From assembly GCA_033584155.1 (NCBI GenBank), contig CP138355.1, positions 3,481,826-3,545,825 of the forward strand: a stretch of DNA of 64,000 nucleotides. Reading direction: 5' to 3'. Of the stretch, positions 24,985 to 62,818 are shown in pieces. A model generated the notes under the pieces. That model was not told where the DNA came from. It searched no databases and saw only the letters and a list, made by a program, of their open reading frames with translations. Numbering within the stretch: the stretch's first letter is position 1; each line of letters starts with the position of its first letter. Origin of the DNA: Candidatus Electrothrix scaldis. GTDB lineage: Bacteria > Desulfobacterota > Desulfobulbia > Desulfobulbales > Desulfobulbaceae. Made by a program: the position numbers and the translations under genes.

Positions 24985-25023
24985 AAAAAGCAACAAAGGC
25001 ACAGGGGAAAACCCTGTGCCTTT
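24985..25023 (-). terminator. Terminator downstream of ahcY
   Basis: A perfect 12-bp stem pairs AAAGGCACAGGG with CCCTGTGCCTTT (24995-25006 with 25012-25023). Read on the minus strand it is followed by TTGCTTTTTC. It lies about 115 bp beyond the ahcY stop and probably ends the phosphonate/methyl-cycle operon. Confidence 0.8.
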
Positions 25024-25137
25024 CTCCAGATGCCGGAATCACTCTGCGTACAGCTCTATTGTATTACTTCAGAGCGCTACCGGCAAGGAACTCTTGATTT
25101 TTACACCATCAAGGTTCGAAAAAATACTGCCCTCCAA

Positions 25138-26424
25138 TCAATAACGATAATATTCAGGCTTGTACGGTCCTTCAACATCAACGCCAATATAATCAGCCTG
25201 CTCTTTACTCAGAACGGTCAGATGAGCCCCGATTTTCTCCAAATGCAGGCGTGCCACCATCTCATCAAGTTTCTTCGGCAAAAAATATACCTGTTTTTCA
25301 TAGAGAGCGTAGTTATTCCACAGTTCAATCTGGGCCAACACCTGATTGGTAAAGGAGTTGCTCATGACAAAGCTGGGATGACCGGTTGCGCAGCCAAGGT
25401 TCACCAAACGGCCCTCAGCCAGCACAATGATACGTTTGCCATCGGGCCAGATAACATGATCTACCTGGGGCTTGATATTCTCCCACTCCAGATCCTTGAG
25501 ACCAGCAATATCTATCTCAGAATCAAAATGACCAATATTACAAACAATGGCCTCATTTTTCATCTGATCCATATGGGCTCTGGTAATGACGCCCAAGTTA
25601 CCGGTGCAGGTCACAAAGATGTCACCAACAGCAGCAGCTTCTTCCATAGTCACAACCTTGAAGCCTTCCATAGCAGCCTGAAGTGCGCAGATAGGATCAA
25701 TCTCTGTCACATAGACAATAGCGCCCATGCCGCGCAGGGCCTGAGCACAGCCCTTACCAACATCACCATAACCAACAACCACACCAACCTTACCGGCAAT
25801 CATCACGTCTGTAGCGCGCTTAACGCCATCAATGAGGGACTCTCGGCAGCCGTAGAGGTTGTCAAATTTTGATTTGGTTACAGAGTCGTTGACGTTAATG
25901 GCCGGAGCAAGCAGGATGCCTTTTTTCGCCATCTCGTTCAAGCGATGAACACCAGTGGTAGTCTCTTCGGAAATTCCGCGAATATCCTTCATCATTTCTG
26001 GATATTTCTCGTGCATGATCTGGGTCAGATCACCACCATCATCCAGAATCATATTGGGTTTCCAGTCATCAGGCCCAAAAATAGTCTGCTCAATACACCA
26101 CCAGAATTCCTCCTCAGTCTCACCCTTCCAGGCAAAAGTAGGAATTCCCGCAGCAGCCATCGCAGCCGCAGCCTGATCCTGGGTGGAAAAAATATTACAG
26201 GAAGACCAACGCAGCTCTGCACCCAGCTCAACCAGGGTTTCCATCAGAACAGCTGTCTGGATCGTCATATGAAGGCAACCCGCAATACGGGCACCCTGCA
26301 AGGGCTTATCTTTACCATACTCGGCACGCAAGGCCATCAGGCCAGGCATCTCAGTTTCAGCAATAGCGATTTCCTTGCGTCCCCATTCGGCAAGGCCCAT
26401 ATCCGCCACTTTATAATCATTCAT
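25138..26424 (-). CDS. ahcY: Adenosylhomocysteinase (S-adenosylhomocysteine hydrolase)
   Basis: 428 residues from the ATG at 26424 ([19 protein letters not shown]), with GGGAG about 11 bases before it; an ATG six codons earlier overlaps that site. It splits S-adenosylhomocysteine into homocysteine and adenosine in the cytoplasm, lifting product inhibition of methyltransferases. Seen are the NAD-binding [11 protein letters not shown], the substrate/catalytic [20 protein letters not shown], and the C-terminal [10 protein letters not shown]. Downstream of metK and the methyltransferase/phosphonate genes, it is the last gene before a strong terminator. Confidence 0.97.
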
Positions 26425-26590
26425 TGTACAACGCACTCCCATAGGGTAGCTAATTGGTAACCAGGTAATGTCTCATCTGAAGGAAAAGCAATTTATCCAG
26501 ACAGAAGGCATAGAAAAAGGCCGAGCAAAGGATTGACCTCTGCCCGGCAGCAAATATACAAAAAACAGCCAAGGATGAACAGGATATTCT

Positions 26591-27754
26591 TTAGATTCCT
26601 GCTGCGTTTTTCAGCTCCTCAGCTTTGTCGGTTCGTTCCCAGGTGAAGTTAGGCAACTCGCGACCAAAATGGCCATAAGCTGCTGTATCCTTATAGATAG
26701 GACGAAGCAGGTTAAGCTGTTGAATAATAGCCTTAGGACGAAGGTCAAAGACCTCCCCAACCAACTGAACCAAGCGCTCTTCAGAAACCTTACCCGTACC
26801 AAAAGTCTTCACATTAATAGAAACAGGCTGAGCAATACCAATAGCATAGGCTACCTGCACCTCAACAGTAGAGGCCAGGCCAGCAGCAACAATATTTTTC
26901 GCCACATAGCGACCCATATAAGAGGAAGAACGGTCAACTTTGGACGGATCCTTACCTGAGAAAGCGCCACCACCATGAGAACCACGACCACCATAGGAGT
27001 CAACAATGATCTTCCGGCCAGTCACACCACAATCGCCCACAGGTCCACCGATAACAAAGCGACCCGTTGGATTGATGAAATACTTGGTGTTCTCGTCAAT
27101 CATCTCAGCAGGGAGGGTGGGCTTAATGATCTCCTCCATCACCCCTTCTTTCAGGTCAGCGTAGGAAACATCCTCGCTATGCTGGGTAGAAACAACGATT
27201 GCCTCAATGCGCTTAGGGATATCATCCTCATACTGAATCGTAACCTGACTCTTAGCATCAGGGCGAAGCCAAGGAAGTACCTTATTCTTCCGGACTTCAG
27301 ACTGCCGCTTAACCAGACGATGCGCATAGGTAATGGGCATGGGCATGAGGACCTTAGTCTCATCACAGGCATAACCGAACATCAGACCCTGGTCACCAGC
27401 ACCCTGATCCAGGTCAAGGCCACTCCCCTCATCTACCCCCTGGGCAATATCTGGTGATTGCTTATCAATGGAAGTCATAACAGCACAAGACTGCCAGTCA
27501 AATCCCATATCAGATGAGTTGTACCCAATACCACGGATAGTCTGGCGGACGATCTCCGGCATATCCACCCAAGCTGAAGTGGTAATCTCTCCGGCAATCA
27601 TGGCCAATCCGGTTGTCACCAAGCTCTCACAGGCAACACGAGCATGGGCATCTTGCTCCAGAATAGCATCGAGAATCGCATCAGAAATCTGATCAGCCAC
27701 CTTGTCAGGATGGCCTTCGGAAACAGATTCTGATGTAAAAAGATGACTTGACAT
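26591..27754 (-). CDS. metK: S-adenosylmethionine synthetase
   Basis: 387 residues. The ATG at 27754 is chosen: TAAGGAGAAT is 6 bases before it and the protein then starts [19 protein letters not shown] as the family does. It makes SAM from methionine and ATP. The ATP-binding [17 protein letters not shown] and the P-loop [16 protein letters not shown] are intact. The order gene 27868-28671 / metK / ahcY on one strand, with gaps of 113 and 166 bp, suggests co-transcription or internal promoters. Confidence 0.97.
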
Positions 27755-27790
27755 AAATAGATTCTCCTTAAATAAAGGTAATAAAACTTC

Positions 27791-27830
27791 CCTCCCTTTT
27801 AGGGCGGTAGGCTGCGACTTCCGCAGCGCC
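27791..27830 (-). promoter_or_regulatory. Possible structured leader of metK
   Basis: On the minus strand GCTGCG and CGCAGC form a perfect 6-bp stem with a 5-nt loop, extended by a GGC/GCC pairing, and followed by a CCCTAAAAGGG hairpin. All lie 35-80 bases before the metK start. I could not match it to a known SAM or SAH riboswitch consensus; it may be an attenuator, a transcript end for the upstream gene, or neither. Confidence 0.3.
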
Positions 27831-27867
27831 AAATAAGACTATGTTTCGTAAAATGATGCGCGGATAC

Positions 27868-28671
27868 CTACCATCGCATCACCCTCATGTCTTTACTCTT
27901 TTTTCTTTCCATGACCCATGTTGTGCTGTAAGCGCAAGACACGTTGTAGTGCTCGCGTTCTTCGGGAAGCAGGTAACGCTGCATTCCTCCGACACAATTA
28001 ATAAAGTCAAGTTTATTTACAATATATTGCTTGAATTTTTTATGATGTTTCATAAAAACATAATTAAATGCGGCAATGAGAATTCCTGATCCGCTACCCG
28101 CAGCAAACGCATCAATAATAAAATAAAAGTTTTCAAGGTTGATATATCCCGGAGCACCGAGATGGACAAAATCAGCAACACCGAGTGCATCAGAGAGTCT
28201 CTGTCGCTCAGATGCCGACGGATTATTGATATCAAGTTCCATAGTTTCGTCAAAAATACCTGCTCGGCGACCATAATCCAAAGCCGGTCCCGATAAATCA
28301 ACTCCTAATGTTTTACAGGAAAAACGCCTCGACTTAAGAGACTTCAAACTTTTTTCCTCGCTGCTCCAAGCCTCAAGAATTTCTTCCGGGGACATTCCAT
28401 GCACAGCGGCAAAAAATGAATCACCGTAAGAGGACAACAGATCAATGCAGTAAAGCGGTTTTTCCCGCGCGGCTTGTTCAATCAACCTGCCATATACTTC
28501 TAAATCAAAAATTTCTTTAAGAATTCCGTCTTTGCAATGAATCTGGCACTTATCCATCAGCTCTTTGCGATAGGTTACCGGATACGCCGAATTGTAGGCT
28601 GCGGACCAGTCCTTTTTATACTCCTGACCTGGCTCAGTCCTAGAGAAAAAACGAATTTCTTCATTTATCAT
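27868..28671 (-). CDS. Methyltransferase-like protein of unknown substrate
   Basis: 267 residues. The region LYCIDLLSSYGDSFFAAV (about 73-90) resembles motif I of a Rossmann-type SAM methyltransferase, and GVDLSGPALDYGRRAGIFDE (about 123-142) the acidic loop after beta-2. FVHLGAPGYI (about 168-177) would be motif IV. The glycine loop is altered (SSYGD rather than GxGxG), so SAM binding is likely but not certain. It is 10 bp after the PLP-enzyme gene and just ahead of metK, in the phosphonate cluster. Substrate unknown. Confidence 0.6.
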   Translation of the reverse strand: MINEEIRFFSRTEPGQEYKKDWSAAYNSAYPVTYRKELMDKCQIHCKDGILKEIFDLEVYGRLIEQAAREKPLYCIDLLSSYGDSFFAAVHGMSPEEILEAWSSEEKSLKSLKSRRFSCKTLGVDLSGPALDYGRRAGIFDETMELDINNPSASERQRLSDALGVADFVHLGAPGYINLENFYFIIDAFAAGSGSGILIAAFNYVFMKHHKKFKQYIVNKLDFINCVGGMQRYLLPEEREHYNVSCAYSTTWVMERKKSKDMRVMRW

Positions 28672-28681
28672 TATCTGTTCC

Positions 28682-29857
28682 TCATTGTTTGATATGTGGG
28701 AGAGCTTTGATGAACGAAGTTTCTATATCATCAATGATCAGGTCAACATTCTCGTAGCCGAGACTGAGCCTGATCAAACTATCACTGATATCCAATTCCC
28801 TCCGTTCATCACCGGTATAGTGATAGTATGTAAAAACGGAACACTGCTCGATCAGCGTTGTATCTGTACCGAAGTTTGATCCCATAAAGGGAAGCTGCAC
28901 AGTGTCAACGAAACGTGCCGTTTCTTGAGAATCTCCCTTTATATCAAATGAAAGCACTCCGCCATGCCCCTTAAGCTGTTTCTTGGCCAAATCAGCATGG
29001 GGATGACTTTCAAGCCCTGTGTAAAAGACTCTATCAACATAGGGTGAGTCTTCAAGATAACGGGCAAGTTTCATTCCTGCCTGATTATAGTGTTTCATAC
29101 GCAGGCCGAAAGTTTTCAGACTGCGATTGAGCAGGGCGGCGCATCTTGGGTCCGCTATACCTCCTACGACACCTCTATAGGCTCTGACCTGCCTGATTAA
29201 CTCCTTGGATCCGGCAATACTGCCCGCCATTATATCGCCGTGCCCACTCAAATATTTAGTGCAGCTATGAATAACAAGATCAGCACCGAAGTAAAGTGGT
29301 TTGAAATTATACGGAGAACTCATAGTACTGTCCACAACGAGCAACGTATCGCTATGAATAATACTTCTGATTTTTTTTATATCTACCAAATAGAGATGGG
29401 GATTGCAGGGAGCTTCCACAAAGATTATTTTCGGCTGTAACACCCTGTACTGTTTTAAAAAAACTTCATCAAATTGCTCAGGATCAGCACTACTGACAGG
29501 ATAGGCTGTCACTCCCATATCTGAAAGCATCGAAGTAAAGAAGGTTCGGGTATTTCTGTAGCAATTGCCCGTAAAAATGATATTGTCGCCAGATCGTATA
29601 AAAGTCAGCATTGCAGTGACAATGGCATTCATCCCTGTGGAGAACAGTAAGGCTTCCTCCGCATCATCAAGCCGGGCGAGATGCTCTTCAGCCTCTGTCC
29701 AATTGGGATTGCTGTAGCGACCGTAACGTCCCAACTCAACCTCGCCCTTATGATATTGAATGACCTGCTCCGTGTCTTTGAAGACATATGTCGCGGTTTG
29801 ATATATGGGGGTGTTGCAGCTATTGATGTGTTCACTTAACATCTTTTCATTAGGCAT
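28682..29857 (-). CDS. Cys/Met-metabolism PLP enzyme (cystathionine gamma-synthase/lyase type)
   Basis: 391 residues with the family signatures: YGRYSNPNWTEAEEHLARL (about 45-63), the SSGM-like STGMNAI (73-79), VVDSTMSSP (174-182) and the PLP lysine in HSCTKYLSGHGDIMAG (Lys201). The start has AAAAAGGAGA before it. Members make or break C-S bonds: cystathionine synthesis or cleavage, homocysteine formation, or methionine gamma-lyase. The exact reaction is not readable. In this cluster it could move sulfur between homocysteine and cysteine. A 300-bp gap separates it from the decarboxylase gene. Confidence 0.85.
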   Translation of the reverse strand: MPNEKMLSEHINSCNTPIYQTATYVFKDTEQVIQYHKGEVELGRYGRYSNPNWTEAEEHLARLDDAEEALLFSTGMNAIVTAMLTFIRSGDNIIFTGNCYRNTRTFFTSMLSDMGVTAYPVSSADPEQFDEVFLKQYRVLQPKIIFVEAPCNPHLYLVDIKKIRSIIHSDTLLVVDSTMSSPYNFKPLYFGADLVIHSCTKYLSGHGDIMAGSIAGSKELIRQVRAYRGVVGGIADPRCAALLNRSLKTFGLRMKHYNQAGMKLARYLEDSPYVDRVFYTGLESHPHADLAKKQLKGHGGVLSFDIKGDSQETARFVDTVQLPFMGSNFGTDTTLIEQCSVFTYYHYTGDERRELDISDSLIRLSLGYENVDLIIDDIETSFIKALPHIKQ

Positions 29858-30158
29858 AGCGTAATCTCCTTTTTAACTCGTTCTCATAGCTACCAGCTTA
29901 AGCCGGGACAAAAGAGGAAAATCGGAATCAAAAAAATATCGGCGGTCTCCCCAGCGAGTGTTGTTGAAGATTCAGAAACGCATAAGCCGGACACAGCTCA
30001 AAAAAAACGACCATTTTACAGAGCGCGGAGCCGTAAGCTCAAAACAGCTGGCATTACAAGCTTTAGCCCCTGACAACATTCAAAAAGGTGATCAGCAAAA
30101 TATCAAGAATGAAGATTTGCCCCGGATAAATGAGACGACGTTATGCTGATTTTTGCTT
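29858..30158 (-). other. 300-bp non-coding gap inside the phosphonate cluster
   Basis: No credible gene is present on either strand. This is the longest gap in the cluster, directly upstream of the PLP-enzyme gene, and could hold a second promoter or a regulatory leader. I found no match to a known riboswitch and no clear terminator. Confidence 0.5.
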
Positions 30159-31331
30159 TCAGGCTTCCGCTCTGTTTCTTATCTCATCAGGAAAATAAGC
30201 TCCCCATTGATTCATAAAGGCGAGCTTATTTTCAACCGGCGATGTTGTTGGGCGCCCCAGATCCGGTCGTGCGCCTTTCCTGACCTTGATAACCAGCATG
30301 GTTGGTCCATCCCCTCCCGGCAGTCGGGTCAGAGCGTCCCGCAGTTCCTCGGCGGAAGAGACGGTTGCTGCCTCTCTGTAACTGTTGGCCAGCGCAGTCC
30401 GGGCAAAATCTGTTGCGGAAGATGTGCTCGGCTGGCCTCCGGTCGAATCATAGGCATGATTATCAAAGACCAGATGCACAAGATTCTTGGGAGCATAATA
30501 CCCGATAGTCGATAGCACGCCCGCATTCATAAGCAGGGCACCGTCGCCGTCCAGAATATACACTCTCTGCTCAGGTCGTTGTAAGGCGATTTCAGCGGCA
30601 AAGGAAGAGGCTAGGCCCATAGACCCGACCATGAGAAAGTCCTGCGCATGCCCGGATCCGAAAGCTTCACGGTATTCAAACAGCTCTCTGGAGAGCTTTC
30701 CGGTGGTTGCGACAATCACATTATTTTTATGCAGCGTTTTTAGCAGGATACCGAGTGCCTCCTCGCGCCCCAGTTCGTACTGCCGGGAAGCAGCCTCCTC
30801 CTGTCCCCCTACTGAAGGGGCAAAGGTCTTTCTCGGAACAATCAGCGCATACGGTGCGTTCTCTGCCGTCATAAAACGTTTCGCCTCGGCCACGACTTGT
30901 TCCGCAGCCTGCACCGTATCAGGAAGAAGACTGTAACAGATACCCATGAGGTCGAGCAGGCCCTCTGTCATTGCGCCCATCCTGCTATGCTGCGGTTCGT
31001 CGGGTTCGCCGGGGCGACCGCGCCAACCGATCAGCAGCAGGACAGGAATATTGTAGACTGCCGGGTCAAGCAGCGAGGTGACCGGATTAACAATATTGCC
31101 TAAACCGGAATTCTGCAGATACACGGTCCCGATTTTTTCGGTGGCGGCATGATATCCGGCTGCCCAGCCGACAGCATCCCGCTCAATAGAGACAATTCTG
31201 TTCGTCAGTCCTTGGCTGCGGTGCTGATCCAAAAAATGCAGCCAGTGTTTCAAGGTGCTGTCAGGCACACCACAGAAATAGGTCAGATCATAACGTTGAA
31301 AAATTGTACACAACTCTTCACCGGTCAGCAT
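30159..31331 (-). CDS. ppd: Phosphonopyruvate decarboxylase
   Basis: 390 residues, a ThDP-dependent enzyme that decarboxylates phosphonopyruvate to phosphonoacetaldehyde, the step pulling the unfavourable PEP mutase reaction forward. N-terminal PYR domain with YFCGVPDSTLK (18-28), IGWRGRPGEPDEPQH (101-115); C-terminal PP domain with the diphosphate/Mg2+ motif GDGALLMN (262-269) and FDNHAYDSTGGQ (289-300). The GVPDSTLK and GWRG..DEPQH motifs separate Ppd from sulfopyruvate decarboxylase and acetolactate synthase. It overlaps the PEP mutase gene by 7 bases. Confidence 0.93.
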   Translation of the reverse strand: MLTGEELCTIFQRYDLTYFCGVPDSTLKHWLHFLDQHRSQGLTNRIVSIERDAVGWAAGYHAATEKIGTVYLQNSGLGNIVNPVTSLLDPAVYNIPVLLLIGWRGRPGEPDEPQHSRMGAMTEGLLDLMGICYSLLPDTVQAAEQVVAEAKRFMTAENAPYALIVPRKTFAPSVGGQEEAASRQYELGREEALGILLKTLHKNNVIVATTGKLSRELFEYREAFGSGHAQDFLMVGSMGLASSFAAEIALQRPEQRVYILDGDGALLMNAGVLSTIGYYAPKNLVHLVFDNHAYDSTGGQPSTSSATDFARTALANSYREAATVSSAEELRDALTRLPGGDGPTMLVIKVRKGARPDLGRPTTSPVENKLAFMNQWGAYFPDEIRNRAEA

Positions 31332-33058
31332 TGCAGACTCTCCAGGGCATATTGATAATCACGAACAGTACGAATCTCCAACCAGCCCTGATTCACCTCG
31401 TACGCATTGACAGGATAGCCCATGTCAATGATCTCCTGAATAATATCAGCGACTGAAGCTGTCTCGAAGGTGGAGGCTTCATGAAACGGTCCGCCTGCAT
31501 ATTTATGCTGTGCTTCATGATATACGTTTTTTAAAATGTCAGCCCCCTGTTCAGAAAAATAGGCAATCCCGGAAAACTCATGGGTTGCTCTGTTTCGGGA
31601 AATTGTTCGTCCGATCATCTTGACATCCATATCCGCTAAGGGATTCAGCATACGATAATGTTCATTACTGACAGTGCTTTTTGCGATGACCGTTTCCATA
31701 TCGGGTTTGTCTGTCTCCCCTGGATGATGCCGATAACTGTGATCAATAACCAGAACAATGTCCTGCTGCATCTGAAAAATTTCTCTGATGATTTTCTCGG
31801 AAAACAAAACGTCTGAATAAATCATAACAAATCCATTCAGCATATATTCTTCAGCGCAGAGTAAGGCATACAGCGAAGAGTTCAGATCATACTGAGGATT
31901 ATAAATTTTTTCAATCTGTTGATAGGTAACCTCCTCAGATCCGAAACCTGCCACCAAATAAACATTGCAAATTCCTACATTATTAAGGACCTCTACCTGG
32001 TGCTGAATAATTGTTTTATCCTGAAGTGGAATCAAACTGGCCGACATTTCACCGAGTTCATCAGTTAACGCCGTATTTAATGGGCCTGCATCAGGAATAA
32101 CAGCGCAAATTTTGATCTGATTATAGGTCTTATCTTTTTCTTTCACATCCATAAAGCCCACGGTCTTGAAAACCTGCCTGACAGGTGCGCAGATTGGGTC
32201 CGCTTCAAAGCTTCTCCCAGATTTCAGGATGGTTCTACACACCTTATCCATGGCCGCATAGGCTGCACGTAACAGGTGATTGGCATGGATGATAATATCA
32301 AACCCCTGCCGCACCAACTCCTGTTCCGTGATCATATTATAGGTGGTGGGCACACAGACTAAGGGCTTTCTGAAGCCTAATGCATCGCATATCTTTGCAT
32401 ATTCCTGGGCAAAACGAAAAATTTCATCAGGTTCATGTTGTTTGGAATGAATCATGATGCCGTCCGCTCCGGCGTTCAAATAGACTTTTGCCCGCTTGAC
32501 GGCATCGTCAATCCCCTTATTGGCAATAAGACTCTCCAGACGGGCCATAATCATAAAATCTTGGGATAAAAGTATCTCCTTGCCTCGACGAATTTTTGTC
32601 GCAACGACGTACGGGTCTTCCAGGTCCTGCCTTGCTCCGGCCTCAAGGCTGTTCCGTTTAGGAAAGACCTTATCTTCAATAATTACTGCCGACACACCGA
32701 TACGTTCCAGTTTGGAGCAGAAATATTCAAAATGCGTTGCCTCGCCGCCGGTATCGCCGTCAACAATCATGGGCTTGTTGGTGACGCTCAAGATTTCTTC
32801 AATAGTCTGCAGGCGCGACTCAACCCCGATTATCTCCGCATCCGGGTACCCTTTTGATGCGGAATCCGTAAAACTGCTCTCCCACAAGCCGTCAAACTCC
32901 AAACTGTCTTCGTTCTGCAAACGAACGCAGGCGTCGTTCGCGATCAATCCGCTTAACCCGTTATGAGCTTCAATGATTCGGGCAACACCTTTTTTTTGCA
33001 GAACTTGTTTCAGCTTACTTCGACGTTGTTCGGGACTGATAAGATTTTTTAATGACAT
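31325..33058 (-). CDS. pepM: Phosphoenolpyruvate mutase fused to a nucleotidyltransferase-like domain
   Basis: 577 residues. Residues 1-305 are the isocitrate-lyase-fold PEP mutase, which converts PEP to phosphonopyruvate, forming the C-P bond: LWESSFTDSAS (58-68), VDGDTGG (99-105), and the hallmark EDKVFPKRNS (128-137). Residues about 316-577 are a nucleotidyltransferase (LicC/GlmU-N-like) domain with IPLQDKTIIQHQVEVLNNVG and LNSSLYALLCAEEY. Its nucleotide loop, normally LAAGxGxR, reads IPDAGPLNT here, so activity is uncertain. The fusion hints that the final phosphonate is linked to a nucleotide. Central gene of the cluster; overlaps ppd. Confidence 0.95.
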   Translation of the reverse strand: MSLKNLISPEQRRSKLKQVLQKKGVARIIEAHNGLSGLIANDACVRLQNEDSLEFDGLWESSFTDSASKGYPDAEIIGVESRLQTIEEILSVTNKPMIVDGDTGGEATHFEYFCSKLERIGVSAVIIEDKVFPKRNSLEAGARQDLEDPYVVATKIRRGKEILLSQDFMIMARLESLIANKGIDDAVKRAKVYLNAGADGIMIHSKQHEPDEIFRFAQEYAKICDALGFRKPLVCVPTTYNMITEQELVRQGFDIIIHANHLLRAAYAAMDKVCRTILKSGRSFEADPICAPVRQVFKTVGFMDVKEKDKTYNQIKICAVIPDAGPLNTALTDELGEMSASLIPLQDKTIIQHQVEVLNNVGICNVYLVAGFGSEEVTYQQIEKIYNPQYDLNSSLYALLCAEEYMLNGFVMIYSDVLFSEKIIREIFQMQQDIVLVIDHSYRHHPGETDKPDMETVIAKSTVSNEHYRMLNPLADMDVKMIGRTISRNRATHEFSGIAYFSEQGADILKNVYHEAQHKYAGGPFHEASTFETASVADIIQEIIDMGYPVNAYEVNQGWLEIRTVRDYQYALESLQC

Positions 33059-33159
33059 ATCGAGAGATTCTATTTATCCGTTTCAGGCTGCTCTCTTTAA
33101 GGTAACAGATACCCGCAGCCTGTCACGTTATTCATTCAGGTCGTACAAAGCGACAACAT

Positions 33160-33861
33160 TCATATAAGCACTTTGTACAGACAGTAAAATATTTTTATCT
33201 TATCGCTGTAATCGGGGTTTTCCGGCATATACGGCATGGCAGGAGACAGATAGGCGGGCTCAAGCATCCCCTGCTCTTCCATTGCCTGCAGCAGAGAAGG
33301 ATAGTTGCGTTGACTATGGATATCGGTGCGGTTGGTAAACAGTATATAGCCCTGCGATCGTATAATTCTGCAGAATTCGTTCAGCAGGGGCTCGGGATCT
33401 GCAATATAGGTGAGCACTGCTGTGCAGATAACCGCATCAAAGATCTTATCCGCAAAGGGCAGCTGCTGTTGGGCATCCACCCGATGCAGCTCTGTATACA
33501 CTTTTTTCTTTTCAGCAAGGGCCAGCGATTTCTCGGAAATGTCTGCTCCAGTTATGTGCTGATAACCCTGTTGGGCAAGGGCTTCTCCGGCAAGCCCTGT
33601 GCCGCAGCCAAGGTCCAGAATTCTTCCCTGCACAGGAAGGAATTTCTTCAGCAGATCAGCCGCCACTTCATGACATTTATAGTTCCACTGCGCCACCTGC
33701 TGCTCATACACTTGGGAGAGACAGTCGTATTCCGTTGCAGCTTTCCGACTGTCTGTTGTGGCTCCGCCTGCCCATTTTCCGAAGAAATCCGCCTGATCTG
33801 TATTCAGAAATTCTTCTTCACAGGCATTCTGCATGTTCTGCTCTGTCATCGATTCTGTCAC
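33160..33861 (-). CDS. Class I SAM-dependent methyltransferase
   Basis: About 233 residues if started at the GTG at 33861, with CAGGAGA 9 bases upstream; an ATG at 33900 would overlap the gene before it by 23 bases. A SAM-binding Rossmann domain is clear: LDLGCGTGLAGEAL (motif I), TGADISEKSLALA, a motif IV at FDAVICTAVLTYI. N-terminal residues with a Cys/Glu-rich start are not conserved-looking. It belongs to the broad Methyltransf_11/25 group, substrate unknown. It lies between two genes of 2-aminoethylphosphonate synthesis. Confidence 0.85.
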   Translation of the reverse strand: MTESMTEQNMQNACEEEFLNTDQADFFGKWAGGATTDSRKAATEYDCLSQVYEQQVAQWNYKCHEVAADLLKKFLPVQGRILDLGCGTGLAGEALAQQGYQHITGADISEKSLALAEKKKVYTELHRVDAQQQLPFADKIFDAVICTAVLTYIADPEPLLNEFCRIIRSQGYILFTNRTDIHSQRNYPSLLQAMEEQGMLEPAYLSPAMPYMPENPDYSDKIKIFYCLYKVLI

Positions 33862-33877
33862 CGGTTCAGTTCTCCTG

Positions 33878-34705
33878 TTATGCTTTGCGGGCAAACACAA
33901 AGGTTGCCTGCCCTATATTTCTTCGTAATGCCTCCCTCTGCTCAAGATACGCAGCCATCGTGCCTTGAGCATTCATTGTGCGGACCCGTTCCAAAGCCGC
34001 ATCCAGTTCCTCCTGCTCTGCTAAAGACCACGTCGAATCACCGTCACGATAGCTTTTTTTCAGAGGCCCCTGCGGGTCCAGATAGCCTTGCCCCTGCAGG
34101 ACTTCATGCAAAGGCACGAGCCTGCCCGCAGAGTGAAAGCCTGCAGCCCGGAAGCTTGCTTCAATCTCGGTTATGGGAGGAAAGCGCACGGCAATGCGGT
34201 CTACGGCCCGGGGAATCAGGTCCGCCCACCAGAAGCCATCGCGCAGCTGCTTCCGGCTGCTTGTGTTCAGGACAATAACCCCGTTCGGGCGCAGCACACG
34301 AAAGGCTTCCTGCAACAATCGGGTCAGCTCAGGAAATGCGCTGTTCGACCGGCCGGACCCGAGATGATGCAAAACCTGATTGCACATCAGGCCGTCAAAG
34401 CTTTCCGCTTCATAAGGAAGTTCCGGCAGTTTTCCGTGCCTCAGATGAACATTTCGGATTCCCTGCAGATTCTCCTGCGCCCGGCGCAGCATATTTTTAT
34501 TCAGCTCCAGACCGTGCAGACAGCCGATCTTATCGCTCAACATCCTGATGCAGGTCCCGGTGCCGCAACCTGCGTCTAAAACCGTTTGTTCAGATAAGGG
34601 GCGGGGATTTGCCGCAAAGCAGCCCAGAAGGATTTCAAGCCCGGCAGGTGTTCGGGTCTGGTCATAGTTTGCTGCTGTGGCATGATAGTCTTCATACTTA
34701 CTCAT
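33878..34705 (-). CDS. Class I SAM-dependent methyltransferase (UbiE-like)
   Basis: 275 residues. MSKYEDYHATAANYDQTR at the start, then motif I VLDAGCGTGTCIRML (about 42-56), HGLELNKNML, and motif IV FDGLMCNQVLHHLG. The C-terminal half has a GFWWADLIPRAVDRI element absent from plain UbiE proteins and likely substrate-specific. The stop overlaps nothing; its start overlaps the AEP transaminase stop by 4 bases (ATGA), which argues that it acts in the same pathway, perhaps N-methylating an aminophosphonate. This last point is inference. Confidence 0.88.
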   Translation of the reverse strand: MSKYEDYHATAANYDQTRTPAGLEILLGCFAANPRPLSEQTVLDAGCGTGTCIRMLSDKIGCLHGLELNKNMLRRAQENLQGIRNVHLRHGKLPELPYEAESFDGLMCNQVLHHLGSGRSNSAFPELTRLLQEAFRVLRPNGVIVLNTSSRKQLRDGFWWADLIPRAVDRIAVRFPPITEIEASFRAAGFHSAGRLVPLHEVLQGQGYLDPQGPLKKSYRDGDSTWSLAEQEELDAALERVRTMNAQGTMAAYLEQREALRRNIGQATFVFARKA

Positions 34706-35838
34706 AATGTCCTGCTCTTTTCTGCACTTAAGAGCTGAATATTCAGCTCAATTAATATCTCCCGCAACGACCCGAGAAAACACAGAATGTCCTGTTCCGT
34801 GATCGCGCCCATATTGGCCAGACGGAAGGTGTCTTTTTTCCCTATCTTACCCGGATAGATGGTAATCCCGCTTTCATACAGTTTGTCGTGCAGGACGTCA
34901 AAATCAAAGGCGGACGAGTCGGGATATTCAACAGTGATCAGAATATGCGATTCCTGTTCCGGCTGCGTTAAGATCCGAAATCCGAGTTCCTGCATACCCT
35001 TGCGCAGAACACGCCAGTTTCGGGTATAGCGCGCATAACGCTGTTCCATGCCTTCTGCAAGAAATTCATCTATTGCCTGCCGTAGGGCATACATAGTCTG
35101 GACCGGAGGGGTAAAACGCATCTGCAGATTCTTCTCAAAATACGCATACTGATCATAGAGACTGAGATAAAAAGAGCGCCGGGGATAGGACTGAATACGG
35201 TCTAACGATACAATTTTACAAATCACAAAGGCAATGCCTGCCATACCCTGGAGGCATTTGTTGGAGGTGGACATCATAAAGTCTATGTTGCATGCCTTGA
35301 TGTCTAGTGGAATTCCGGCAAAGCTGGAAATGGTGTCAACAACAAAGACCTTATTATACTGTCTGACCAAGACCCCTATGTCCTGAATCGGGTTGAGCAG
35401 GCCTGTGGTGGTTTCATGATGCACCATGCCGATCACAGCGATCTCGGAATCCTGCTGTAAGGCCGCTTCAATTCTGCCGATATCAGGAAGTTCATCCCAG
35501 GGAAACCGGAGTTCGATATACTCTATGCGGTAGGCCTGGGCGATTTTGACCATGCGTTCGCCGTAGGCCCCGTTGTTGATGATCAGAATCTTTTTTTCAA
35601 GCGGGATGACAGAATTAATGACCGCATCCATAGCAGCTGTTCCTGAGCCGCCGAACAGGACGCTTGCATACTCTGCCCCCCCTCCGGCGATATCGGTCAG
35701 GTCATCCGCCACTGAACGCATTAATTCCCCGAACTCCTGTTCTCTGGGACAGATATCAGGAACAACCTGCGCGAGTTTAACGCTGTCCGTAGTGGTTGCA
35801 GGTCCCGGATTTAATAAAATGTTGCGCTGTATCTGCAT
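34702..35838 (-). CDS. phnW: 2-aminoethylphosphonate--pyruvate transaminase type enzyme
   Basis: 378 residues, fold-type I PLP enzyme. The N-terminal LLNPGPATTTDSVKLAQVVP and DICPREQEFGEL are near-diagnostic for PhnW-type transaminases; the PLP lysine is Lys194 in TSNKCLQG, and FGGSGTAAMD (62-71) is the phosphate site. In degradation PhnW removes the amine of AEP; next to PEP mutase and decarboxylase genes it is expected to work in reverse, forming 2-aminoethylphosphonate from phosphonoacetaldehyde. It sits 25 bp after the MetE-core gene. Confidence 0.92.
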   Translation of the reverse strand: MQIQRNILLNPGPATTTDSVKLAQVVPDICPREQEFGELMRSVADDLTDIAGGGAEYASVLFGGSGTAAMDAVINSVIPLEKKILIINNGAYGERMVKIAQAYRIEYIELRFPWDELPDIGRIEAALQQDSEIAVIGMVHHETTTGLLNPIQDIGVLVRQYNKVFVVDTISSFAGIPLDIKACNIDFMMSTSNKCLQGMAGIAFVICKIVSLDRIQSYPRRSFYLSLYDQYAYFEKNLQMRFTPPVQTMYALRQAIDEFLAEGMEQRYARYTRNWRVLRKGMQELGFRILTQPEQESHILITVEYPDSSAFDFDVLHDKLYESGITIYPGKIGKKDTFRLANMGAITEQDILCFLGSLREILIELNIQLLSAEKSRTL

Positions 35839-35862
35839 TGTTTCTCCATAAAAAAACAGGTA

Positions 35863-36915
35863 TTATCCTGCAATTTTTGCAGCCTGCACCATATTCCGTA
35901 ATTTCGCGATCACCGTTGCATGATCCAGCATAGCCAGACCGCAGTCCGGGGCAGCAATCAGGCGTTCCGCATCAATATGCTCCAAGGCCTGTTGCAGGCG
36001 GGCGGTTATTTCATCAACCTGCTCTATTCTGGATCGGGCAATGGCAATGACACCGAAAATGACGGTCGTTTGACGAAAATGCTCCAGGAGCTTCAGGTCA
36101 TTGTTCTGATGCGCATCTTCAATGGAAACTGCATCAATGTCCGCCGCATCCAAAGGCGCGGCCAGCTGAAAATAGGCGGCCCGATCCGCCTTATAATAAT
36201 TTTCGTCGTCCACCCTGGCCGGATAACCGCAGCAGATATGGGTTATTCGGGTCACCGAATCGGGCAGGTTGTGAAAACAACGTTCCAAGTTTTCTATACC
36301 GAAGGCAAGTGCCTTGTCCGGCTGCCGGGCAAAGAGCGGTTCATCAATCTGAATCCGTTGACATCCGGCCTCTGCCAAGGCCAGTATTTCGTACTGTAAA
36401 GCAGCTGCCAATTCTCGACAAAGCTGCCGCTCATCATTGTAGTATCCGTCAAAAAGTGAGTCGTTCAGGGTTAAGGGACCGGGAATGGTCACGGTTATCG
36501 GGCGGTTTGTTGCGGCCTGCGCAATTTTCCAATCCCGTACCAAAAAATGCTCATAAGCCCGAACAGGCCCTGCAATGGTGGGCACTTTATTGAACCATGC
36601 ACCGGAGCGCATCGTTTTTTCAGTTAACCTGGAAAAGTCAATGCCCTTAAGATGGCGACAGTGGTAGTGGATGTAGTTTTCTCGGCGAACTTCGCCGTCC
36701 GTAGGGAAATCAATGCCTAGGTTAACCTGTTCCTGTACTACCTCCTGTGCAGCCCTGTCCATAACTTTTTCCGTATTTTCCTCCGAGCGCAGAGTGTATT
36801 CATTATACGCTGTGACAGAATCCGTCTGAACCGTATCCCCGTCCTGAAACCAATCAGGAACAGCAAGGTACGCGGGTTTAGGATATGCTCCTATGGTGGC
36901 GGTTAACAATGTCAT
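35863..36915 (-). CDS. MetE catalytic-core-like methyltransferase (cobalamin-independent type)
   Basis: 350 residues, matching only the C-terminal catalytic barrel of MetE; the N-terminal half is absent. The zinc ligands are kept: HIC in ITHICCGYP, Glu in VSIEDAHQNNDLKLL, and Cys in APDCGLAML. QIDEPLFAR and the DGEVRRENYI loop are also seen. Such core proteins methylate homocysteine or act on other thiols (the coenzyme M-epoxyalkane enzymes are relatives). The methyl donor is unknown. First gene of the phosphonate operon, with AAAGGAAG before the ATG. Confidence 0.85.
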   Translation of the reverse strand: MTLLTATIGAYPKPAYLAVPDWFQDGDTVQTDSVTAYNEYTLRSEENTEKVMDRAAQEVVQEQVNLGIDFPTDGEVRRENYIHYHCRHLKGIDFSRLTEKTMRSGAWFNKVPTIAGPVRAYEHFLVRDWKIAQAATNRPITVTIPGPLTLNDSLFDGYYNDERQLCRELAAALQYEILALAEAGCQRIQIDEPLFARQPDKALAFGIENLERCFHNLPDSVTRITHICCGYPARVDDENYYKADRAAYFQLAAPLDAADIDAVSIEDAHQNNDLKLLEHFRQTTVIFGVIAIARSRIEQVDEITARLQQALEHIDAERLIAAPDCGLAMLDHATVIAKLRNMVQAAKIAG

Positions 36916-37038
36916 ATATTCTTCCTTTGAGGCATTTTCGGCAGACGCCTTCCGGCTCTTCTTTCAACTTTTTCATGCAAAATAAAAAAAAATCAATCGA
37001 ACATACTGAAATATCAAGACATCACATCTAATATCGCA

Positions 37039-37067
37039 AAATTCACCCTCGGAAAAAGGGCGAATTT
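37039..37067 (-). terminator. Terminator of the MscS gene
   Basis: On the minus strand AAATTC-G-CCCT pairs with AGGG-T-GAATTT around a TTTTCCG loop, just past the channel gene's stop and followed by TTGCG. It separates the channel transcript from the phosphonate operon, whose promoter should lie in 36,920-37,035. Confidence 0.7.
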
Positions 37068-37068
37068 A

Positions 37069-39330
37069 TCAGGCTGCTTTGTTCTCCGGCAAGGCTTTTG
37101 CTTGCTCAGGATGATGCACTTCAACGGGTTTGAGCTGGAGAATATTCCATCCATATTTATTAGCAGCCCGCAGACAAATATGCGTTACGGTGCGTTTGAT
37201 TCCGCTGTATTTGGCCGCTATCTCAGGACGCGCCTGAATCCATACAAGGAAACTGAGAGAAGTTTCATCTAACGAACCAAGTTCAACCCACGGATTTTCA
37301 ATGTCGATAATGTGTTCCGCGTAAGGTAACTTTTTGGCCTCTTCCCTAACAAAAGAAATGAGTTTATCAACAATTTCCTGATACTCCCTATGCTGATAGG
37401 AAAGACGAAAGGTAATACCCACCCAGAACGGCCTCGCCAGACTCAGTAAAGTACTATTCATGAAAACACTGGTAGGCATATATTCATCCATATCACAACC
37501 GTACCAATCAAGTTTAACATACTGCGGTGTAATCATGAGTACCTTACGCATGATATTGCCATTGACCAAAACGACTTCACCTTCCTTACAAGGAAACCAA
37601 GGTTCGCTTTCATCATAAGGCCGCGAGCGCATTCCAACCAGATCTTTCAAGGGGAGACGAAGGGTACCACCGGTGAGGAGCGGATTATTCAGATAACTGT
37701 ACACCCCCATCATTTCCACTCGGTACGGGATACCGTCAACCATAACTTTTTCCCCCTGACGGACAGGTCCAAAACCGAGGAGCAACTTAATCTGCTCAAC
37801 AAACTGCGGTAAAGTATTCCGCGCTCCCCAAATGATCCCGATAACCAACAGCAACACAATAGCCAGAATCAACCAGTCTCCTGAAGTAAACAGAACTGCA
37901 ATCAGAGCACCAGTGGCAACGATAAGTGCAAGTCCGTAGAGCATAACATCCACAAGATTTGCCCAAAACATATATTTCGGCGACCTGTGTAACGGACTGA
38001 TCCACTGAATTCCTTTCTGGATAAAACGGAAGAGCAAGTAAATCCCCACAAAAGCAAGCAGGGCGAAAAAGAGATTTTTACCCCGATTCTTGACAAAAGA
38101 ATCAAAAAATACTTTGAATGAAGTCAGGAGAGACTTGCGTTCGTTTTCGGCTTTAAGAAGCTGATTCTTAGCAGCCTCTTCCTGAGTGACAAATTCTTTT
38201 TCCAGTTGCACCCAGTATTCTTTCCAGGATTCAAGGCGACCTTTCACCTTTTTATCTGAAACTTTTTCCAGAAACTTATCTAAATCCTCAGAGGCCTGCT
38301 GTATTTGTGGAATGCGTTTCTCAAGGTATAGTATCTGACTACGGAGTCTTTCCATTTTGCGGGGACGTTCGGTAGTCTCCTTCAGCTCCACAATGATGGG
38401 AGAAAAAATTTCTTTGAGTTCTTTTTCCCAATCAACCTCTTTCCCCTCTTTTTTCAGAAAAGTATTGTAGTCAATTCCGGTTGTGAGAAGAGAAAAATCA
38501 TTCTCTGTCTTTTCCAGACGATCATTTAATTCGCTCAGATAGGATGAAATATTTTTTTTCTGCTCCTCAGACCCGGCATTTTTCAACTCAGCTTCGTATT
38601 TTTTAATCTCTTTCTTGATTGAGTCGCTTGACTCAACCATGTCGCTGAGCGTTCCAATTTTCTTGGCGAACAGTGCCTGCTCCAGGATATGTCTGGTGAT
38701 AACCTCTGCCTGGTCGCTTTCTTGTCCAGCCTCCTTCAACACAGCTGTAATCTGCTCTGTTTGTGTTCCGTCAATATCTGATATAATTTGAGAGAGCCTG
38801 TTCTCCTGTTGCTTGAAAAGATTATGCTGTTTTCTTAGCTCATCAGAGAGTTTCTTCTTCTCTTCCTCCTGCTGCGTACTTTCAAGTACCTCCTCGTTCT
38901 TTTCAATATCTCTCCAGATTCTTTCCATTTTCAAAGCAACGGGAGCAGCTTGTACAATCGCCTTTATAAATTTCTGTCGTTCATGGACAAGATTCAGGAC
39001 AGTTTCAAGCTCCTCCTCCGAAAATGCTAGCCCCTGTAGATCTTCGACAAGTTGCGCTTCGGAAAATTCTTTATCTTTCAGTTCTCCGATTTGTTCAAAC
39101 TTCTCGTCAGAAATTCTGCCCTCCAAACTTTGGACTATGCTCCCATCAAAGAGAAACAAACCTTCAGGTTGCATCTGCTCGTCCGCCTGAGCGGCCTGCT
39201 GTTGCGCTTGCTCACCACCAGCTTTAACAGGACTCTCCTGATCTTGCTGTGCCCATACCGGGTTCAGCAGAACCAATAGCAAAATTCCTATAACTGAACA
39301 GTACCTTCTAATACAGCTATTCTGTTTCAT
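37069..39330 (-). CDS. Large MscS-family mechanosensitive channel
   Basis: 753 residues. A signal peptide (1-27, cut after VWA) leads into a long periplasmic region (about 40-400) that is acidic, Glu/Lys-rich and predicted coiled coil. Three or four membrane helices follow (about 415-530; LLLVIGIIWGARNTLPQFVEQ is the pore-helix region), then the MscS beta-domain (GEKVMVDGIPYRVEMMGVYS) and C-terminal domain. Large MscS types with periplasmic extensions protect against osmotic shock or gate on ligands. It is 88 bp downstream of the methyltransferase triplet. Confidence 0.88.
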   Translation of the reverse strand: MKQNSCIRRYCSVIGILLLVLLNPVWAQQDQESPVKAGGEQAQQQAAQADEQMQPEGLFLFDGSIVQSLEGRISDEKFEQIGELKDKEFSEAQLVEDLQGLAFSEEELETVLNLVHERQKFIKAIVQAAPVALKMERIWRDIEKNEEVLESTQQEEEKKKLSDELRKQHNLFKQQENRLSQIISDIDGTQTEQITAVLKEAGQESDQAEVITRHILEQALFAKKIGTLSDMVESSDSIKKEIKKYEAELKNAGSEEQKKNISSYLSELNDRLEKTENDFSLLTTGIDYNTFLKKEGKEVDWEKELKEIFSPIIVELKETTERPRKMERLRSQILYLEKRIPQIQQASEDLDKFLEKVSDKKVKGRLESWKEYWVQLEKEFVTQEEAAKNQLLKAENERKSLLTSFKVFFDSFVKNRGKNLFFALLAFVGIYLLFRFIQKGIQWISPLHRSPKYMFWANLVDVMLYGLALIVATGALIAVLFTSGDWLILAIVLLLVIGIIWGARNTLPQFVEQIKLLLGFGPVRQGEKVMVDGIPYRVEMMGVYSYLNNPLLTGGTLRLPLKDLVGMRSRPYDESEPWFPCKEGEVVLVNGNIMRKVLMITPQYVKLDWYGCDMDEYMPTSVFMNSTLLSLARPFWVGITFRLSYQHREYQEIVDKLISFVREEAKKLPYAEHIIDIENPWVELGSLDETSLSFLVWIQARPEIAAKYSGIKRTVTHICLRAANKYGWNILQLKPVEVHHPEQAKALPENKAA

Positions 39331-39418
39331 TTTTTTTAAAGTTCCTTAGTAGGATTTTTCGTTTTCAAACCAGAAAAGAAAGGAAATCAACAGGACGGGA
39401 CTCTTCACGAATGGAAAA

Positions 39419-40093
39419 TTATAACAAACTATATGTGAAAAGCTCATGTTGGACAGAACTCCCGTCCAACAATTTTCGATGTCTATACTTCTGACGGTTA
39501 AGGAGGATATATTGCTCATTCATCCATTGCAGAATATCCTGTCGACGACGATGGAAAGGGTCCTCCACCAAATTGAAAACAACATAGGATGGTTTTGCCA
39601 ACAAAGCAAGATAATATTTATAATCTTTTAAGGTTAGATGATTTGCAGCTCCACAAATTATCAGACAATTGATATTTTTAACCTTGAGCTCAGAGAGATC
39701 GTCTTCTGGAAGTAAAAAACATGTATCGTACACACCGGGTGTATCACGCTCTAGCGCAGTCAATGCTTCCGGTGTAACCTCAACACCAGCAAGATATTCA
39801 ATAATAAAACGATTGCAGTCTCTTATTCTCTTGCCCATAAGGCCGCTGCCGCAGGCAATGTCAGCTATTCTCATTGGCAAATTCTGCGGGATAAAAGTAA
39901 GCATTGCCTTCTCTACAGCAGCATAAATGCCACATTGCAGGAAATCTGCAATCAGACAACGATAAAGATCGCGATGGCTATAGAGGAATTGATAATCCCA
40001 GATGTGAAATTTCTGTTCCACACCATTAGGAAACCGTACGCTCAGCAGCTCATCTCCTTGTTGTCCAGCTTTGACGCAGCTGAAGCTATACAT
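39419..40093 (-). CDS. Methyltransferase-fold protein of unknown substrate
   Basis: 224 residues. Motif I reads MRIADIACGSGLMGKRI (about 73-89) and an acidic pair follows at YLAGVEVTPEAL, as in Rossmann-type SAM methyltransferases. ICLIICGAANHLT-like sequence (NCLIICGAANHLTLKDYKYY, about 140-159) would be motif IV. The N-terminal 70 residues have no match I recognise. It overlaps the cysteine-synthase-like gene by 8 bases, so the two are translationally coupled and probably act together. Confidence 0.75.
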   Translation of the reverse strand: MYSFSCVKAGQQGDELLSVRFPNGVEQKFHIWDYQFLYSHRDLYRCLIADFLQCGIYAAVEKAMLTFIPQNLPMRIADIACGSGLMGKRIRDCNRFIIEYLAGVEVTPEALTALERDTPGVYDTCFLLPEDDLSELKVKNINCLIICGAANHLTLKDYKYYLALLAKPSYVVFNLVEDPFHRRRQDILQWMNEQYILLNRQKYRHRKLLDGSSVQHELFTYSLL

Positions 40094-41063
40094 TCAACAC
40101 CTCTATATGCTGTTCCTGCAAAAAAGATGGGTTATAAATTTTTGATAAATACTTGACACCGTGGTCGCAAAGGATAGTCACAATAACTCCTGTATCAAGT
40201 CGCTCACTCAGTTTTTGACAAGCTGAAAGATTTAACCCACTGCTGCCGCCAACAAAAAGGCCTTCTGTTTGCGCCAACTGATGACAGCAGGCGACAGCTT
40301 CCTCATCAGAGACATTAATGACCTCATCAATCAAAGAAAAGTCCGCGCAACCAGAGGGAGTTGCTTTTCCAGCCCCTTCAATGAAATATTTTTTTCGAGA
40401 AAGTTTTTCGAAAGGACGTTGTTTGTATTGCCAATAGTAATCAGAAACCCCTGAATACAGAGGGTCAGCAAGTACAACGTGAATGTCTCTGTTTTGCTCC
40501 TTTAAGTAGCCTGCTGTTCCACCGATACATCCAAAGGTAGAGGACGTCATAACCAGACAGCTGACCTCTCCTTGGCTTTGCCTCCATATCTCCGGCCCCA
40601 AGGTTGCATAATAAGCCTGGGGATTATCAGGATTATCGTACTGATTAATATCAAAATAGCCGTGTTTTTTTGCCAGCTCCCCGGCATACTCCATATATTC
40701 TTCTTCATCAACAACAAGAAGCTTGGCATTAAAGGCGCGGATATGATCCCTTTTCTCGGAGCTGCATTTCTCAGAAGTGACCACAATAACCTTATATCCC
40801 TTTACCGCCCCCAGCATAGCGACACTTAAGCCGGTGTTTCCGCTTGAAGCACAAATGATAGTGTCTCCTGGCTGCAAATCTTTTTTTCCTTCTGCCTCAA
40901 GCAATATATAGTTGATCAAGCGATCCTTCATACTTAGGCCAGGATTCATAAACTCACACTTTGCATAGAGTTGGACAGAATCGTTCACCATTGTACTCAC
41001 ATCAACCAGTGGAGTATCACCGATTAAATCAACAAGTCTTTTTGGAGCCAAAGAAGTCGTCAT
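40086..41063 (-). CDS. Cysteine synthase / cystathionine beta-synthase family PLP enzyme
   Basis: 325 residues from the ATG at 41063, whose ATGA overlaps the stop of the upstream gene; the frame is open to 41102 but inside that gene. Fold-type II PLP enzyme: LIGDTPLVDV (13-22), the PLP lysine in NPGLSMKDRL (Lys46), the ASSGNTGLSVA loop and the phosphate loop FGCIGGTAGY, a variant of GTGGT. Members join or exchange groups at the beta carbon of serine-type amino acids with a sulfur or other nucleophile. The flanking methyltransferases suggest a special substrate. Confidence 0.85.
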   Translation of the reverse strand: MTTSLAPKRLVDLIGDTPLVDVSTMVNDSVQLYAKCEFMNPGLSMKDRLINYILLEAEGKKDLQPGDTIICASSGNTGLSVAMLGAVKGYKVIVVTSEKCSSEKRDHIRAFNAKLLVVDEEEYMEYAGELAKKHGYFDINQYDNPDNPQAYYATLGPEIWRQSQGEVSCLVMTSSTFGCIGGTAGYLKEQNRDIHVVLADPLYSGVSDYYWQYKQRPFEKLSRKKYFIEGAGKATPSGCADFSLIDEVINVSDEEAVACCHQLAQTEGLFVGGSSGLNLSACQKLSERLDTGVIVTILCDHGVKYLSKIYNPSFLQEQHIEVLNV

Positions 41064-41764: not shown

Positions 41765-41807
41765 AATCAACTCGGTCCTTAAGTCTTTTCTTATAAAGTA
41801 AACCTAA

Positions 41808-41986
41808 CTGTTACAGATTTAGGGGAGCAGCCTTGATTGGATCATCAAGCCTGAAATCTCAAAAGCAAGAAACCAACAACTTATGTTTATGCCCTTCTTT
41901 CAGGTGACTTTTAGAAGCTCTCCGGCGAACAAATTAACTTACTGATATCCCATTATTTGAGATAGCCTCCCCTAATTCCGTAACAG
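41808..41986. mobile_element. 179-bp MITE-like element
   Basis: CTGTTACAGATTTAGGGGAG at 41808-41827 and its inverted counterpart CTCCCCTAATTCCGTAACAG at 41967-41986 match at 18 of 20 positions. The interior has no gene. Terminal inverted repeats, small size and lack of coding capacity fit a miniature inverted-repeat transposable element. I could not identify a clear target-site duplication or its transposase family. Confidence 0.6.
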
Positions 41987-42006
41987 TCAGAAAAAAATCT
42001 ATAGCT

Positions 42007-43917: not shown

Positions 43918-44043
43918 TTACTCCCGTTGCTTATAGCGTGCTTTAGTTAATATTCTTAGCGAGGTATTCTGATCGCTCATTAACTTACCCACATCTTCCT
44001 GCATAAAAAAGACATACAATAAGAGACGAGCAACGTATCCAGA

Positions 44044-47590: not shown

Positions 47591-47616
47591 AAACGCGACA
47601 AAAGGATCTCAGCGAA

Positions 47617-48774: not shown

Positions 48775-48826
48775 AACACTCTCCGCTTACAAGCAAAATA
48801 TGTACATCCCCTCCCTTATGCCTTTA

Positions 48827-49349: not shown

Positions 49350-49389
49350 GTTTTACTTTTAGGTAGCTTTTTACATAAAATTTCGACCA

Positions 49390-62784: not shown

Positions 62785-62818
62785 AACGCTTTTCCCCTGA
62801 CTCTATCGTGATTATTTA

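Follow-up and report, generated by a model that had tools for sequence, protein, structure and literature searches.

Candidatus Electrothrix scaldis GW3-3 is described as a marine cable bacterium (PMC10926707), and its genome forms one contig of 5,089,909 bases. The 64,000-nucleotide stretch of it analysed here (‘the window’) carries a metF-metK-ahcY operon, the genes of the S-adenosylmethionine (SAM) cycle, and the striking fact about this operon is that it houses a swappable methylation cassette. The operon is very probably the host’s own, and what separates metF from metK an insert of replaceable cargo. In the window this cargo includes the enzymes for 2-aminoethylphosphonate (AEP) together with methyltransferases, and N-methylated AEP is the likeliest product, to which we give an even chance of being correct; that both propositions hold together, inserted cargo and methylated AEP, we put a shade lower than that. 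Where the insert lies, that it is swapped and that MT1 (see below) goes with the AEP genes are observations; what is made and what it is for are inferences. The original prediction, made from the sequence of the window alone, had seen a phosphonate cluster with a complete SAM-recycling cassette merged into it.

The ten open reading frames (ORFs) of that prediction, 25138–36915, are all found on the minus strand at the coordinates first assigned to them. The unit is larger than ten genes. The insert (27772–41886; 14.1 kb, 12 genes, all minus and all co-directional with the operon) adds four more, and upstream of it adjoins a 636-aa BHMT-type/MetF fusion (42007–43917, minus), a gene of the host SAM cycle that was named by eye from its sequence, with no family search. 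On the other side lie metK (26591–27754, minus, with its ATG at 27754; 623.7 bits against a cut-off of 309.4) and ahcY (25138–26442, minus; 648 bits against 497.6). These two, like the MetE-core family discussed below, have one match each in the whole genome.

Six sister genomes of the genus (G001–G005 and G007) preserve the gene order Lon, BHMT/MetF, metK, ahcY, L,D-transpeptidase, although in G001 the L,D-transpeptidase falls outside the stretch compared; in two of the six, G003 and G007, metF directly adjoins metK. From the seventh, G006, whose assembly is 69% complete, no metK was recovered, and it does not enter the count. The metF-metK-ahcY arrangement extends to G062 and G084, members of the same order, but over a range of 20 kb it was not found in the family members G008 and G036. 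Phosphonate genes are absent from all six sister operons. None of the 7 other genomes of the genus gives a match to phosphoenolpyruvate (PEP) mutase, which makes one positive genome in eight, and among the 96 genomes searched 21 match it at E ≤ 0.001, nearly all of them weakly or through a single domain. We therefore reject metK and ahcY as members of the phosphonate cluster—they are sole copies, and in six of seven sister genomes stand in the same order without phosphonate genes—and with them goes the supposed merger of a SAM-recycling cassette into that cluster.

The outline of the insert is seen most clearly by comparison with G005. The DNA of the two genomes is 97.7% identical over 25135–27771 and 98.2% over 41887–49350; between these flanks the match is limited to 37577–39333, at an MscS-like gene. 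The same slot holds 14.1 kb in the window and about 8.0 kb in G005, and the junctions of the swap are exact, one at the 3′ side of metF and the other at the ribosome-binding site of metK. What occupies the slot in G005 is a different cassette: a piece of a dehydrogenase, the MscS-like gene (82%), a cystathionine-type (CGS-like) gene (43%), a KamA-family radical SAM protein (TIGR00238, 202.9 bits against 199.2), a class I aminotransferase, and a methyltransferase 35% identical over residues 55–206 to MT2, the second of the methyltransferases described below. The CGS-like, aminomutase-like, aminotransferase and methyltransferase genes of this cassette occupy L041:12460–16644. Base composition was tried as proof of transfer and set aside: the GC content of the insert genes, 0.41–0.55, against 0.47–0.50 for the flanking genes, is not decisive.

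Other members of the genus carry cargo at this locus, too. In G001 and G004 a glycine/sarcosine methyltransferase (GSMT; 484 and 485 bits against a cut-off of 350) lies between Lon and metF, adjoining a relative of sarcosine/dimethylglycine methyltransferase (SDMT) whose score in G001, 369, is under the cut-off of 550. The pair stands beside metF-metK-ahcY at L046:12869–14543 in G001 and at L044:5147–6821 in G004; the best GSMT score in the window genome is 41.6 bits against the same cut-off of 350. G002 has a different methyltransferase there, judging from weak domain matches, and in G003 and G007 metF is the only ORF there of at least 90 aa. Cargo is thus present at five of the seven loci of the genus, window included, and all five cargoes contain a methyltransferase, with the proviso that a single event may underlie both G001 and G004. 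Beside the methyltransferase cargo, downstream of Lon, a POPDC/cyclic-nucleotide-binding protein is encoded in G004 (L044:7110–7814) and G002 (L045:6681–7427), the families having been tested on the G004 protein. Sereika et al. report no osmotic-solute pathway for the genus. The GSMT genes seen here in G001 and G004 call for a qualification of that statement, though those genomes may not be in their set.

The phosphonate genes themselves are easily recognized. PEP mutase converts PEP to phosphonopyruvate, phosphonopyruvate decarboxylase (Ppd) converts this to phosphonoacetaldehyde, and a transaminase then yields AEP; this is the standard chemistry of these families, and the pathway that we propose would begin with it. 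PEP mutase (31325–33058, minus; TIGR02320, 331.8 bits against 319.55) is fused to a divergent, MobA-like nucleoside triphosphate (NTP)-transferase domain that scores 27.0 bits, exactly at its cut-off. Ppd (30159–31331, minus) scores 409.7 bits with TIGR03297 against 312.5, and AEP transaminase (34702–35838, minus) 431.7 with TIGR03301 against 360.8, and matches PDB 6pd1 with E 1.1e-106. All three exceed their curated cut-offs, and the mutase carries EDKVFPKRNS, which conforms to the EDKxxxxxNS motif as defined for PEP mutase in PMC6697681. A second PF13714 match in the genome (344704–345390, locus L002) has no such motif. Synthesis of AEP by the three enzymes, as first predicted, is thus supported, and so are the families of metK, ahcY, the MetE core and the cystathionine-type enzyme, all above cut-off. 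Of the three methyltransferase-like proteins that had been predicted, two are class I methyltransferases by Pfam: MT1 (33878–34705, minus; PF08241, 71.1 bits) and MT2 (33160–33900, minus; PF08241, 78.4 bits), both above cut-off. The third, MT3 (27868–28671, minus), found no family in Pfam or NCBIfam and no significant match in the PDB, and remains methyltransferase-like by eye only.

Relatives of this module are few. A scan of genome contigs from 84,980 species, which uses short peptide patterns and detects close relatives only, picked up a single relative, 72% identical, of the fused PEP mutase, in a metagenome-assembled genome (MAG) of Kiritimatiellae (L040), a member of another phylum. In L040, PEP mutase, Ppd (65%), AEP transaminase (78%) and MT1 (68%) are adjacent, in an order that differs from the window’s, and the 16.4 kb of L040 contain no match to metK, ahcY, core MetE, the CGS-like gene, MT2 or MT3. 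A gene that by eye resembles a transposase adjoins this cluster. Among 387 genomes of the phylum of this MAG, 20 match PEP mutase at E ≤ 1e-60, of which, besides the L040 MAG, one is full-length, at 33% identity. Of 395 genomes of Desulfobacterota, 29 reach E ≤ 1e-40 with the PEP mutase model; 15 of these, window included, are set apart at E ≤ 6.1e-78, and 11 pass the cut-off. The 14 other neighbourhoods, 9.9–19.9 kb long and in some cases ended by contig edges, contain no match at E ≤ 1e-5 to MT1, core MetE, metK, ahcY or the CGS-like gene, and a single, weak one to MT2 (L093, 28.8%, E 5.7e-6). PEP mutase and SAM-cycle genes do not, then, form a conserved cluster of the kind that a survey of neighbourhoods had been expected to reveal. 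Among plasmids, 56 records hold a relative of PEP mutase, those listed all falling short of 60% identity, and MT1 has no plasmid match at E ≤ 1e-15.

What might be done with the AEP? We suggest that the host metF-metK-ahcY genes supply and recycle SAM, and that the AEP and methylation module—PEP mutase, Ppd, AEP transaminase and MT1—was acquired horizontally, along with accessory genes, as replaceable cargo. MT1, perhaps with MT2, would use this SAM to N-methylate AEP to its mono-, di- or trimethyl form. The suggestion draws on three things: the conservation of MT1 beside the genes for AEP, the lack of a nucleotidyl route, to which we turn next, and the SAM-cycle setting. The product would stay a free zwitterion, not activated with a nucleotide. 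Core MetE (35863–36915, minus; Meth_synt_2, PF01717, 135 bits against 21, the sole PF01717 match in the genome) may add local remethylation of homocysteine. It has no match in 7 other genomes of the genus and 2 of the family, and may, from its sequence, be a methionine synthase or else act on another thiol.

Whether the product could also be a compatible solute is a more doubtful matter. The argument is by analogy: betaine-type methyltransferases are published in clusters of this kind, two sister genomes have that arrangement, and the insert includes the MscS-like gene (37069–39330, minus; common to G005 at 81–82% identity). Its 753-aa product has no sequence match in Pfam or the PDB. In a Foldseek search its low-confidence model (pLDDT 55.6, pTM 0.29) has 29 matches at E ≤ 0.001, whose titles name MscS, MSL1, YbiO, YnaI or MscK, except for three rows reading ‘a membrane protein’; the list amounts to a hint, on which the protein is likely MscS-like. 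Compared with its counterpart in G005 (L041:9552–11846), it is nearly identical in the N-terminal and middle parts and sharply divergent in the C-terminal part, as if recombined. One might go further and picture metF-metK-ahcY of marine cable bacteria as a swappable locus for methylated solutes—glycine betaine in some, the product made by a KamA-type cassette in another, and in the window a phosphonate-betaine osmolyte (N-methylated AEP, up to trimethyl-AEP) releasable via an MscS-type channel—a picture that we consider rather improbable.

The most serious competitor to free, methylated AEP is a surface phosphonate. The fused domain would make CMP-AEP, or a methylated form of it, and a transferase encoded elsewhere would couple this to a lipid or glycan, in the manner of the Pnt pathway; methylation would decorate the product or serve other ends. 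Rice et al. 2019 (PMC6697681) report that some 60% of Ppm enzymes carry a fused nucleotidyltransferase domain and that this is a common pathway, and in the window both the fused domain and its YxDxxF motif are conserved. Against this, neither the fused domain of the window nor that of L040 has the usual G-rich loop and PK lysine, and the company they keep is different. Eight of the 14 Desulfobacterota neighbourhoods have a full-length fusion plus transaminase, with the EDK motif in six and not in L101 and L102. An additional nucleotidyltransferase with intact loop-and-PK motif accompanies all six of the true fusion clusters—all eight, if L101 and L102 are counted—by a pattern that was widened after its first version matched five of the eight. 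No match to this intact motif occurs in 25000–42000 of the window or in L040, and no LicD- or CDP-alcohol-type transferase is found among the 12 insert genes, the rest of the genome not having been searched. A surface phosphonate thus strikes us as unlikely, and nucleotide joining for transfer to lipid or glycan, which the original prediction had offered as a possibility for its methylated product, is disfavoured; AEP synthesis and the methylation theme are the part of that idea that survives. A cluster in G111 (L094:4761–8014) has an intact nucleotidyltransferase, and a CDP-alcohol phosphatidyltransferase and methyltransferase beside PEP mutase, which suggests a phosphonolipid in that organism.

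Free, methylated AEP, our preferred reading, has a good deal to answer for as well, and the following points weigh against it. The fused domain may still be functional, to judge by its sequence. Six related fused domains are also without the PK lysine, though they keep AAG, and YxDxxF, which presumably binds metal, is kept in all ten aligned fused proteins. For this reason we rejected the notion that the domain is simply dead and limit our claim to the missing of the usual motif. The domain is 63% identical between the window and L040, against 80% for the mutase part, and there, too, YxDxxF is kept; and the negatives for nucleotidyltransferases and transferases are limited, within this genome, to the block and the insert. 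The link between MT1 and the AEP genes comes from one relative, on a single MAG contig, and nothing in the sequence says that MT1 acts on AEP, so the methylation of AEP stays putative. The MT1 model (pLDDT 85.2) gives 1,062 Foldseek matches at E ≤ 0.001, among them AtmM, the sarcosine/dimethylglycine methyltransferase 2o57, RebM and phosphoethanolamine methyltransferases, a list consistent with methylation of AEP but generic for class I enzymes. Other relatives of MT1, 26–32% identical, occur in 5 other genomes among the 395 of Desulfobacterota; as a guide to function they had to be discarded, the short flanks of two showing nothing phosphonate-like. The proposed pathway has no place for the CGS-like enzyme, the CysK-like enzyme, MT2 and MT3, and L040 lacks all four. 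The five-of-five figure for methyltransferase cargo, finally, is a count without a chance expectation.

Those spare enzymes invite another idea: a bioactive phosphonate, made when the CGS-like, CysK-like and core MetE proteins take methylated AEP and lengthen it or join it to sulfur or amino-acid units. The insert has several extra PLP (pyridoxal phosphate) enzymes and methyltransferases, its phosphonate genes are patchy in the genus, at one genome of eight, and in Streptomyces methylated AEP leads to dehydrofosmidomycin (PMC9296572). The extra genes are, however, not in the L040 cluster, CGS-like and MT2-like genes are found in the G005 cassette without phosphonate genes, and there is no dioxygenase among the insert genes, and we consider the idea distinctly improbable. 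Equally so is the notion that all of these genes are neighbours by chance, the metF-metK interval being a tolerated insertion site and its cargo functionally unlinked to SAM supply: metK and ahcY are indeed housekeeping copies, none of the 14 Desulfobacterota neighbourhoods nor L040 has SAM-cycle genes, and a terminator-like hairpin separates metK from ahcY, yet all five genus cargoes have methyltransferases, two of glycine-betaine type, and the insert genes all run with the operon. Since the operon of the genus bears methyltransferase cargo repeatedly, as published betaine clusters do, the proximity of the phosphonate genes to metK-ahcY is probably not mere chance.

The remaining genes of the insert are the CGS-like PLP enzyme (28682–29857, minus; PF01053, 349.6 bits against 27, with no NCBIfam equivalog above cut-off) and, at the metF end, three others: a methyltransferase with an MTS domain (41060–41770, minus; PF05175, 39.4 bits against 23), the CysK-like PLP enzyme (40086–41102, minus; PF00291, 238 bits against 35, its best NCBIfam model, PRK10717, at 272 bits being under the cut-off of 387), and a possible methyltransferase (39419–40093, minus) matched by Methyltransf_12 alone, at E 0.074, with the motif ADIACGSG. 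Within the block several genes overlap, as had been noted: AEP transaminase and MT1 by 4 bp, MT1 and MT2 by 23 bp, PEP mutase and Ppd by 7 bp. Others are separated by gaps of 101, 301, 113 and 148 bp, and a single transcript is therefore unproven. Terminators had been predicted on both sides. Downstream, a strong terminator-like hairpin of 12 pairs does follow ahcY (24995–25023, minus); upstream, the hairpin at 37067–37039 has no trailing T-run; and another strong one falls within the block, where it separates metK from ahcY (26520–26548, minus; 12 pairs, 8 of them G-C, with a T-rich tail). Single sites of this sort mean little, because the scan found 26 against 17.4 ± 4.6 in shuffled sequence. 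An Rfam search over 24000–45000 gave no match. Elsewhere in the window, 56284–63517 encodes two proteins: the gene transcribed first gives one of 232 aa whose N-terminus is like that of a pilin, and the next gives one of 2166 aa that by eye resembles PilY1.

Should the product be N-methylated AEP, cable bacteria, which are important sediment organisms, would make carbon–phosphorus bonds under the same operon logic as betaine osmolytes, and small methylated phosphonates would have gained a named source in sediments. To our knowledge no compatible solute with a carbon–phosphorus bond has been described, and a phosphonate betaine would be the first. Literature searches on cable bacteria and phosphonates returned nothing naming cable bacteria among the matches listed, and those on AEP as an osmolyte returned, among the matches listed, one paper with the AEP term, on a dimethylsulfoniopropionate (DMSP) transporter. 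A query that joined betaine genes to those of the SAM cycle found no papers.

Parts of this arrangement have counterparts in known systems. Core MetE resembles the core methionine synthase MesD (PDB 3rpd), for which residue roles are described in PMC7857596: the Zn ligands (H226, C228, E266, C325), the homocysteine-site Glu and Asp (E75, D191) and the MesD-type Tyr are kept. It differs in having Ala10 in place of the Ser that contacts the homocysteine carboxylate, in scoring 154.8 bits against 3rpd, far from the MesD level of the paper, and in having no MesX (DUF1852) among the insert genes, the rest of the genome not having been searched; MesD, moreover, is reported from aerobes only. With the Pnt pathway (PMC6697681) the window shares Ppd, AEP transaminase and the fusion of PEP mutase with a MobA-like domain. 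It differs in that the fused domain is without the usual loop and lysine and the insert has no extra intact nucleotidyltransferase or transferase, and has methyltransferases instead. Trimethyl-AEP is a known bacterial metabolite, an intermediate of dehydrofosmidomycin in Streptomyces lavendulae (PMC9296572), and an AEP-type phosphonate with SAM-derived N-methyl groups is what we propose here. The cable-bacterial version has no DfmD-type 2-oxoglutarate dioxygenase in its insert, is set in a SAM-cycle operon, and belongs to another phylum. The closest likeness is to the glycine-betaine clusters, GMT-DMT-MAT-SAHase-MTHFR in Halorhodospira and fusedMT-MTHFR-MS-MAT-SAHase in Roseivivax roseus (PMC7824335). 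Like these, the window clusters methyltransferases with metK, ahcY and a metF-type gene (the BHMT-MetF identified by eye), to which the published clusters sometimes add a methionine synthase. G001 and G004 match the published clusters with GSMT and the SDMT relative, whereas the window has AEP genes and other methyltransferases in place of GSMT, and core MetE in place of the full synthase.

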